A stretch of DNA of 64,000 nt, from contig JAKQSI010000093.1 in assembly GCA_029570205.1 (NCBI GenBank), positions 72,850-136,849 of the forward strand, in the 5' to 3' direction. Origin of the DNA: Candidatus Omnitrophota bacterium. Its GTDB lineage: Bacteria; Hinthialibacterota; Hinthialibacteria; Hinthialibacterales; JAKPRU01. Position numbers and translations under genes: made by a program. The notes beneath the pieces are model-generated. The model searched no databases, was not told the DNA's origin, and was given only the letters and a program-made list of their open reading frames with translations. The number at the start of each line of letters is the position of its first letter. Position 1 is the first letter of the stretch. Positions 22,856-26,269 of the stretch are shown here, piece after piece.

Positions 22856-23968
22856 CTAGGGATTTGAGGGGATTGTCTGGGTGTTCCCGCGCAAGATATT
22901 CAAGATTTGCTCTCCGGAGCGTGCCAACAGGCTGAGCAACGCATCGGTGACTTCCGTGTCGTAGGCGGTTCCCCGGTTGTCCTTGAAGTAGGTGATGATC
23001 TGCGGTGCGGGCCAGGCCGGTTTATAGCAACGCTCCGTCGCCAGCGCATCACACACCTCCGCCACAATCAGCATCCGGCTGGGCAACGCGATTTCATCCC
23101 CTTTCAGGCCTTGTGGATATCCTTTCCCGTCCACTCGCTCATGATGTTCATGCACGAACACGGAGACTTCCGCGAGGGACCCGATGGGAGCCAGGATCTT
23201 GTAGCCGGTCTCCGAATGAGTCTTCATAATCTCATATTCTTCCGGGGTGAGTTTATCGGGTTTGAGCAGAATGCTGTCCGGAATCCCGATCTTTCCGATA
23301 TCGTGAAGCAGCCCTGCGATCCTCAGAGATTCGTTATATTCCTTGGGCAGGGAGAGCTCGCGGGCAAGAGTCAAGACGAAGTTGGAAACCCGTGCACCAT
23401 GCCCCTTCGTATATAGATCTCTGGCCTCCAAAGCCAGAGAAAGCGATTCAATGGAATGAATCAGGAATCCCTTGATTTCCCTGGTTTGTTCCTCCACCTT
23501 CTGTTCCAGATAGTTGCGATACTCAATGTTTTCCAGAACCAGTCGTCGTCGTTCCAGGGCACGGGAGGCGATCAGTTCCACAAGGTCGAGGTTGAAGGGT
23601 TTGGTGAGAAAATCATAAGCCCCGAGGCGTACGGCCGAGACCGCATCCTCCAGAGTCGGCTGGCCGGTCATGAGAATAACCGGAATGTTCTGGTCCAAGA
23701 CGATGACTTCTCTGAGGATATCGATGCCGGTCAGGCCGGGCATATAGATGTCCGTGTATACAAGATCGAAGTCGAACTGCCTGCTCTGAATGCGTTCGAG
23801 CGCTCGACGCCCGTCGGTGAATGGCTCCGTTTCGTATCCCAGCATTCGGAGGAATTCGCCCAGCATTGCGCAGATGTCGACCTCGTCGTCGATTATGGCG
23901 ATGCGCGGCTTGAGATCGGGTCTGTTCGGTCGGTATAAAGTGGTTTGGATTCCTGGCGGCATACGCAT
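22856..23968 (-). CDS. Response regulator with HD-GYP output domain (RpfG type)
   Basis: From the ATG at 23968 the protein has 370 residues (ATG at 23962 and a TTG at 23980 are alternatives). Residues about 22-140 are a receiver with I-I-D-D-E and the phosphoacceptor in V-Y-T-D-I-Y-M-P-G, plus the conserved Lys in L-T-K-P-F. A helical linker leads to an HD-GYP domain: H-G-A-R-V-S, H-D-I-G-K-I-G-I-P-D, H-H-E-R-V-D-G-K-G-Y-P. All catalytic motifs look intact, so phosphorylation-controlled c-di-GMP hydrolysis is likely. It is divergent from the receiver-HEPN gene; no kinase is adjacent except cheA. Confidence 0.92.
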   Translation of the reverse strand: MRMPPGIQTTLYRPNRPDLKPRIAIIDDEVDICAMLGEFLRMLGYETEPFTDGRRALERIQSRQFDFDLVYTDIYMPGLTGIDILREVIVLDQNIPVILMTGQPTLEDAVSAVRLGAYDFLTKPFNLDLVELIASRALERRRLVLENIEYRNYLEQKVEEQTREIKGFLIHSIESLSLALEARDLYTKGHGARVSNFVLTLARELSLPKEYNESLRIAGLLHDIGKIGIPDSILLKPDKLTPEEYEIMKTHSETGYKILAPIGSLAEVSVFVHEHHERVDGKGYPQGLKGDEIALPSRMLIVAEVCDALATERCYKPAWPAPQIITYFKDNRGTAYDTEVTDALLSLLARSGEQILNILRGNTQTIPSNP

Positions 23969-24094
23969 ATATCTGAACAAAGAACTTAGCGTAGGTATTT
24001 TACTCTATGAGGTCGGTTGAATCGAGGGTGTGCCTGTCCTCGAGTGATTTGGGTGATAGACTGATAGAAATGCGACAGGCGGACTGAGTGGAAA

Positions 24095-25339
24095 ATGGAA
24101 CAGGACCGATTGATTCTCCTTGTTGACGATAATTCACAGTACCGATCTGCGGTGGCTCGAAATCTCACAGTGGAGGGGTACCGTGTTTTGGAGGCGGAGG
24201 ACAGCACGCAAGCTCTGGAGCAGCTTCAGCGTGAATCTCCCGTTGCGATTATTACTGACTTGGATATGCGTACCCATGATGAAGGACTGCAATTGATCCG
24301 GCAGGTCAAGCGAAATTACCCGCATCTTCCGGTCGTGATGGTGTCGGCTGTTGGGGGATTTGATGAAGGCGCGCTGGCTCGTCAGTATGGGGCCATGTAC
24401 GTTGTCAGCAAATCCAGGATCGACGCGGAAATCGAGAGGTTATACGAGCGGTTGGATCGGATTTGCCGGTATCGTGATGAGATCGATGCACTTCGGGATC
24501 TCGTGGAAACCGCGGACAGTGGAACGGGTATGGATCGTCGGCAGCTATACGAACGGCTGGATCGTCTGTTGCAAGAGCAGGACCTGGATGCCGGGATGAA
24601 AGGGGTGGTGTTCGAGTTACGGGACCGGTTGGAGGTTTCCGAGCGCAGGGAGAGTCGTTCGGGGCGCCCGACGGTGGATCTGCAGGGCGCGCTGAACGAA
24701 TTGCGCACGTTCCTGCCGGAATTGGATTCCCTCCACCCGGAAACTCAGACGATGCTGGCCATCGGGTATCATTTGGAGCAATCGGAACCGAGCGCCGGCT
24801 TGTCTGTCTCAAGGAATGCCTGTTTCTCCTATTCCTTTGCGGTTGAGAATGAGGTGAAGAACCGTGTCGGCAGGCGCATCACTCGATTCTTGACGGGTGG
24901 GGAGGCCGAGAAGATTCTTCGGGAACTGTATGATCCCAAAATCGATAACCTGGACATCTTTTTCAACCAATACATTGTGCGAACGATTCAGGCAAACGAC
25001 CTGGATGTGAATTCGGACATCACGCGCCAAGTTCTTGAACGGATGCTTCGTCACCGGCAGAAGTACAAGCCGGATGGCTTGAAGGCGCTGGGGGTCATGT
25101 TTTTCTGCTTTGGTCGAACATTCAGTTTTCAGGGAGCCTGCGGAACCGTGACCGTGAAGAATCCCATGGGACTGAAAGGACTGGAGGACGATCAGACGAT
25201 GAGGCTTTCAGGATTCCTGATTCGCCTGCAACATTTGAGAAATCCGTTTGTTCATCCGGAGTTCAGTGATCGGGAGAAAACGGTTTGCATCCGGGATACA
25301 GCTATCGAGTGTCTGCGGTTGGCATCCTATCTGGTATGA
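24095..25339 (+). CDS. Response regulator fused to an uncharacterised C-terminal region with a HEPN-like motif
   Basis: The 414-residue protein has a complete receiver at residues 5-125: D11/D12, phosphoacceptor D55 in I-I-T-D-L-D-M, the Ser/Thr position in V-M-V-S-A, and the Lys in V-V-S-K-S. A helical linker (about 125-190) is followed by an all-helical C-terminal region that I cannot place in a common output family. Near its end R-N-P-F-V-H (residues 382-387) fits the R-N-x-x-x-H motif of HEPN RNases and related helical domains. An earlier helix contains S-F-A-V-E-N-E-V-K-N. No DNA-binding, GGDEF, EAL or HD domain is visible. A hairpin follows the gene. RNase activity is a hypothesis only. 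Confidence 0.7.
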   Translation: MEQDRLILLVDDNSQYRSAVARNLTVEGYRVLEAEDSTQALEQLQRESPVAIITDLDMRTHDEGLQLIRQVKRNYPHLPVVMVSAVGGFDEGALARQYGAMYVVSKSRIDAEIERLYERLDRICRYRDEIDALRDLVETADSGTGMDRRQLYERLDRLLQEQDLDAGMKGVVFELRDRLEVSERRESRSGRPTVDLQGALNELRTFLPELDSLHPETQTMLAIGYHLEQSEPSAGLSVSRNACFSYSFAVENEVKNRVGRRITRFLTGGEAEKILRELYDPKIDNLDIFFNQYIVRTIQANDLDVNSDITRQVLERMLRHRQKYKPDGLKALGVMFFCFGRTFSFQGACGTVTVKNPMGLKGLEDDQTMRLSGFLIRLQHLRNPFVHPEFSDREKTVCIRDTAIECLRLASYLV

Positions 25340-25510: not shown

Positions 25511-26269
25511 TTGGAACTTCGACGATATCCCGGCATCTCACTCGACGCTCTTATGAAGAGTTTGGCATTTAACCTTGCTTTTAAAGTCCACCGCAATGAA
25601 ATCCCATTCGCCGAGGGGATCCTGAAAGCGAATGCGGAGGGGGCGGCGGAGGATTTTCTGGACGCGCTGAATTCGCTTGCCGGCGAAGTACGCTATGATC
25701 CGGCGCAGCTTCCCGACCTTTTGGCACAGGCACAGGGTGCGGCCGGCGGATCAGCCGGGCAGCCGCTGCAAGAGCTGAAGCCGAGTGTGGATCTCTCTGC
25801 TCTATTCGAAGAACTGAACAATCTCCACAGGAAGAAACGGGATTTGGAAGAGGGAATCGCGACTCTCAAGACGATGGCGGCCCAGCGCTATCCCATGATT
25901 GTTCCGGGGGTCAATTCCGTTTTGCTTCTCATCACCTTTGGGGTATTTGTCATGATTCTTTTTGCCATGCAGCAGACAATCCTGGGACTGATTTTTATTC
26001 TGGTCGGGTTGGTCGGAGCCGGACTGTTCTATATAAAGGATATGAAAGTGTTGCAGAAACAACGTGCGGAAGCCGAGAGACGTCGGGCGAAACACGAGGC
26101 GGAAATTGCAAGATTGCAGGCCCTGCTGGAGGAAAATGAGAAACTGACGGCAACCAAAGAGGCCGAACTGAAGGCTGCCCAGCAAGCCATCGTTACCGCG
26201 CGCCAGGATGTATTCCGGTCGGTAGGCGGATCCCCCGAAGCGCCACGATTGGATATCAGAAATGAATGA
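25511..26269 (+). CDS. Membrane protein with C-terminal coiled coil, unknown function
   Basis: The frame opens at a TTG (25511) with an ATG at 25553 as an alternative; neither has a clear ribosome site. The N-terminal third is soluble (K-V-H-R-N-E-I-P-F-A-E-G), then a short coiled coil with L-N-N-L-H-R-K-K-R-D-L-E-E. Two close membrane helices span about residues 132-172, with an E-R-R-R-A-K-H-E-A-E-I coiled coil of about 55 residues after them. I do not recognise the family. The layout (hairpin membrane anchor with long cytoplasmic coiled coil) suits a scaffold or receptor-like partner. The next gene overlaps its end by 8 bases, so the two are probably coupled. Confidence 0.65.
   Translation: MELRRYPGISLDALMKSLAFNLAFKVHRNEIPFAEGILKANAEGAAEDFLDALNSLAGEVRYDPAQLPDLLAQAQGAAGGSAGQPLQELKPSVDLSALFEELNNLHRKKRDLEEGIATLKTMAAQRYPMIVPGVNSVLLLITFGVFVMILFAMQQTILGLIFILVGLVGAGLFYIKDMKVLQKQRAEAERRRAKHEAEIARLQALLEENEKLTATKEAELKAAQQAIVTARQDVFRSVGGSPEAPRLDIRNE

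Follow-up and report, generated by a model that had tools for sequence, protein, structure and literature searches.

A response regulator with an unassigned output domain

What does a response regulator control when its C-terminal region resembles no established output domain? This question is raised by an ATG-start open reading frame of 414 amino acids (24095..25339, + strand) in the window, i.e., the whole 64,000-nucleotide stretch of DNA analyzed here, which encodes a receiver and a helical linker followed by a domain that we predict to be HEPN. Based on our analysis, we think it likely that this protein is a response regulator with a catalytically competent HEPN ribonuclease as its output, representing an undescribed family that is phosphorylated by a histidine kinase and gated via its dimer.

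The receiver domain (residues 1-125; 24095..24469, +) matches Pfam family PF00072 over residues 7-110 (E = 9.9e-19) and aligns with ArcA and other receivers at a VIA-align Z of about 21. D11, D12, D55, S84, and K106 are all invariant across 15 aligned homologues, including the predicted phosphorylation site D55 (24257..24259, +), which bears out a preliminary description of this locus that had judged the receiver to be fully conserved. The helical linker (residues 126-194; 24470..24676, +), delimited by AlphaFold secondary structure, is poorly conserved; in the full-length AlphaFold model, the receiver helix at residues 106-142 runs on and is followed by two more helices that lead into the predicted HEPN output domain (residues 195-414; 24677..25336, +).

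This helical C-terminal region of ~220 residues gave no meaningful match in Pfam, NCBIfam, PADLOC, or PDB sequences, in keeping with the earlier remark that it contains no recognized output domain. The best sub-threshold Pfam match, DUF6765 (E of about 0.1), was rejected as noise, and a MarR-like match and others from a profile search of PDB sequences with this region were set aside as chance matches. PADLOC matches of the full-length protein (PD-T4-6, SduA, PDC-M43A) are confined to the receiver part.

Conserved motifs and a predicted fold point to a HEPN domain

According to Anantharaman et al. 2013 (PMC3710099), HEPN families have little sequence in common beyond their motifs, and the features conserved in them are Rx4-6H, in which the R is followed by a polar residue, and frequently also an Ex3[KR] located upstream. 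Both features are present in the window protein, the former as R382-N383-P-F-V-H387 (25238..25255, +), with N383 as the polar residue, and the latter as E251-N-E-V-K255 (24845..24859, +); none of the Pfam or PADLOC HEPN models was matched by the domain. The R-N-P-F-V-H stretch, the predicted catalytic Rx4H motif, had already been singled out in the last part of the protein by the preliminary description, and checking against the DNA places it as given here. Shuffled versions of such sequences contain an RNxxxH by chance in about 2% of cases and the looser Rx4-6H in 74%, so that the RNxxxH motif alone is weak evidence, and the weight is carried by its conservation and by the fold.

Among homologues that carry the receiver, R382, N383, H387, E251, E253, K255, and a DGLKA stretch are invariant, with E251 and K255 unchanged in all 38 sequences. 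We additionally compared these 38 receiver proteins with 20 remote relatives, the two groups averaging 18% identity, and found only seven columns that are invariant across all 58 sequences—D327, G328, A331, Q379, R382, N383, and H387—such that the two residues whose conservation the preliminary description had proposed to check, R382 and H387, are among the few that never vary, together with N383. Each of the 20 remote relatives has an acidic residue (E or D) at position 251, while K or R at position 255 is not found in all of them. The remaining invariant cluster belongs to a family signature, D327-G-L-K-A331 (25073..25087, +; D, G, and A invariant), located in the insert that separates both HEPN hairpins. 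This insert is larger than the range published for other HEPN families, in which it reaches up to 60 residues (PMC3710099).

The AlphaFold2 model of the C-terminal part, built with 12 sequences (pLDDT 88, pTM 0.85), is mostly helical with one beta-hairpin insert. A Foldseek search with this model against PDB and viral structures returned nothing significant (best E = 0.76). VIA-align, a re-ranking of fold matches in which helical bundles call for a Z of at least 13 to be decisive, placed RnlA (6y2r) first among solved structures (Z 10.4, rmsd 3.3, 137 residues aligned), followed by two HEPN-containing regions of Roquin (Z 8.2 and 8.1); the match after these scored 5.8. The fold search suggested by the preliminary description thus led to HEPN structures in each of its three best solved matches, which is hard to explain by chance, though Z values of 8-10 may reflect a common helical arrangement; as such values can arise by chance for helical bundles, the weight rests on the top matches all being HEPN in combination with the motifs. 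The corresponding full-length VIA-align comparison was uninformative for the HEPN part because its list was filled by receivers. On the evidence of motif, conservation, and predicted fold, we assign the C-terminal domain to a new HEPN family.

In some HEPN domains, nucleic acid is bound but not cut. The window domain might have a HEPN fold that is non-catalytic and that binds RNA or a protein partner as a phosphorylation-controlled scaffold, an alternative that we consider unlikely. Such a role would spare the cell the tightly held RNase that a core, single-copy, vertically inherited gene would demand, and it has parallels in other non-catalytic HEPN domains, including that of the RNA-binding protein Roquin (PMC4614863), and perhaps in one remote relative that we examined in a fourth phylum, where HEAT repeats precede the HEPN-like domain. 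However, HEPN domains without catalytic activity tend not to keep Rx4-6H, those that do keep it are predicted RNases (PMC3710099), and R, N, and H are unvarying here in all 58 sequences.

A conserved histidine kinase is the probable partner

Across Sumerlaeota and UBP4, 20 of 23 loci carry a histidine kinase gene immediately upstream of the regulator and on the same strand, and these kinases belong to one family. Regulator and kinase genes are mostly unlinked in the window's phylum, where all 14 genomes contain a clearly best orthologue of the Sumerlaeota/UBP4 kinase (E = 1e-57 to 1e-70); other kinase matches in these genomes are at about 1e-21 or below the cut-off, the exception being a second, partial copy in one of them (G009). 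The likely partner in the window's own genome is found on another contig (G000:C64:42406-43227 (-), locus L150, P0004; open frame of 697 aa).

These same observations speak to whether the regulator is an orphan, with the kinase a mere neighbor and the HEPN domain switched by means other than phosphorylation, e.g., ligand binding by the receiver. Receivers of conflict systems have been proposed to act without kinases (PMC8195603), and for most of the window's phylum no kinase gene is linked to the regulator, but every phosphorylation residue is invariant, and a kinase that both adjoins the regulator in 20 of 23 loci of two other phyla and is co-conserved in 14 of 14 genomes of the window's phylum makes an orphan regulator quite improbable.

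The histidine kinase is the only recurrent neighbor of the regulator apart from LptE-like and LolA-like genes, which lie further upstream in several Sumerlaeota operons. In the window's phylum, glycosyltransferase or glycolipid genes are found near the kinases. Together, these gene associations suggest a possible envelope-related signal. Within the window, the regulator lies between a REC-HD-GYP (c-di-GMP) gene (22856-23980, -) and chemotaxis genes, so that its initially described position is real, but the neighbors differ in the other genera examined, and we reject this context as a functional clue. The gene that comes after the regulator (25511-26269, +) encodes a membrane-anchored coiled-coil-like protein of no clear family.

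The gene appears to be vertically inherited in three phyla

Homologues of the regulator are present in all 14 genomes of the window's phylum at one copy each (with the gene split over two contigs in one genome), in both UBP4 genomes, and in 35 of 40 Sumerlaeota genomes, including 20 of 20 of good quality. In a tree of 35 proteins, a well-supported branch sets each of these three phyla apart, and inheritance thus looks vertical; phage and plasmid collections gave no matches. In the OLB16 genome (L011/L027, L049; G013:C66), a break close to the 3' end of the gene puts the final ~42 residues, with the motif among them, into another frame, which may indicate either a pseudogene or a sequencing error in this MAG.

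Applying our widest profile to a sample of 386 genomes, we found matches beyond the three phyla in just one additional phylum and in two individual genomes. In this fourth phylum (that of G229), large proteins of about 700-1000 aa carry the same domain at their C-terminus in 47 of 58 genomes (L048, L070-L088, L113-L118), with two or three copies in some; the 20 remote relatives compared above were drawn from these proteins. The two weakest matches of the superfamily profile were a Type IIG restriction-enzyme-like protein with a TaqI_C specificity domain (L109:1204-3150, -), whose HEPN-like C-terminal domain contains RNKAAH, and a protein of 405 aa (L108:1186-2400, -) that has a Pua-like domain at its N-terminus and a HEPN-like end containing RNPAAH. 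HEPN RNases are known from restriction-enzyme-type settings.

A restriction-linked protein among the most remote relatives, along with the many HEPN RNases that serve defence (PMC3710099), could be taken to mean that the regulator is itself an anti-phage or toxin-antitoxin effector, either domesticated or still engaged in defence. We regard this as very improbable given that the gene is near-universal within its phyla, single-copy, and vertical, with no matches in the phage and plasmid collections and no PADLOC match to its C-terminal domain. Almost no credence attaches to the domain being an unrelated helical output in which RN..H is merely structural, as might be supposed from the missing Foldseek significance and Pfam HEPN match, against which stand the HEPN-containing regions in the top three VIA-align matches, the presence and conservation of both HEPN motifs, and a relative found in the kind of restriction-enzyme setting in which HEPN domains typically occur.

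A proposed model for phosphorylation-gated RNA cleavage

For the regulator as a HEPN ribonuclease, we propose that the membrane histidine kinase, encoded adjacently in Sumerlaeota and UBP4 and at an unlinked site in the window's phylum, would phosphorylate D55, and that the phosphorylated receiver, together with the long helix that continues from it, would alter the dimer. The two HEPN domains might then jointly form, or else expose, a common active site of R382, N383, and H387, aided by E251, which would cut RNA without a metal. In receivers, phosphorylation commonly changes dimer geometry. HEPN RNases, for their part, are typically dimeric (PMC13092281), and phosphorylation of D55 would for these two reasons be expected to make or unmask the HEPN site. 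That a regulatory domain is able to gate a HEPN domain is an idea supported by the CBS-HEPN system DS-11, a published precedent for signal-gated HEPN. We infer RNase activity, a dimeric active site, phosphorylation gating, and an RNA target by analogy with known HEPN and receiver biology.

On balance, we lean toward a two-component system in which phosphorylation-gated HEPN RNA cleavage is the direct output, a system that is core and vertically inherited in three phyla and may report on the assembly of the outer membrane. To our knowledge, known response-regulator outputs act on DNA, c-di-GMP, or protein partners, or on RNA by binding only, and most known HEPN RNases come from defence and toxin systems. 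In the literature searched, we found no paper that links HEPN to the output domain of a response regulator, and as far as this literature shows, no core two-component system has been described in which the response regulator has a HEPN output. The arrangement suggests that cells may answer a signal by cutting RNA directly instead of switching genes. If true, a HEPN output would place the fate of transcripts under the direct control of a histidine kinase, and would move HEPN RNases into conserved housekeeping signalling. The system is compact, its kinase is defined, and the point mutants to make are clear, so that it can be tested in vitro without culture of the host.

Comparison with known systems

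The closest structural counterpart of the window domain is its best solved fold match, RnlA, the HEPN RNase of the E. coli RnlAB toxin-antitoxin system (RNase LS), which also has its motifs in the same order, E258xxxK262 and then R318x4H323, although the two are closer together than in the window protein. Aligning our family profile with the single RnlA sequence, which was given no alignment of its own, yielded an hhalign probability of about 1%, and no sequence similarity between the two was apparent. RnlA also differs in being controlled by an antitoxin protein, where the window protein is predicted to be controlled by its receiver, and in that its gene resides in the cryptic prophage CP4-57; an RnlB antitoxin gene adjacent to window-type regulators was not found among the recurrent neighbors. 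Roquin, whose ROQ-HEPN provides the matches at Z 8.2 and 8.1, is in contrast a eukaryotic RNA-binding protein without a receiver, in which the HEPN domain is split around the ROQ domain (PMC4614863).

In terms of control logic, the CBS-HEPN proteins, both DS-11 and those described by Anantharaman et al. 2013, likewise join HEPN to a signal-sensing domain and are predicted to be ligand-gated, but they sense through a nucleotide-binding CBS domain where the window protein has a phospho-receiver, and DS-11 is a defence system. PleD, REC-HD-GYP proteins, and CheB share with the window protein a receiver that controls an enzymatic output, with PleD also aligning to the window receiver and linker (Z 20.6); their outputs, however, make or break c-di-GMP or demethylate receptors, whereas the predicted substrate of the window protein is RNA.
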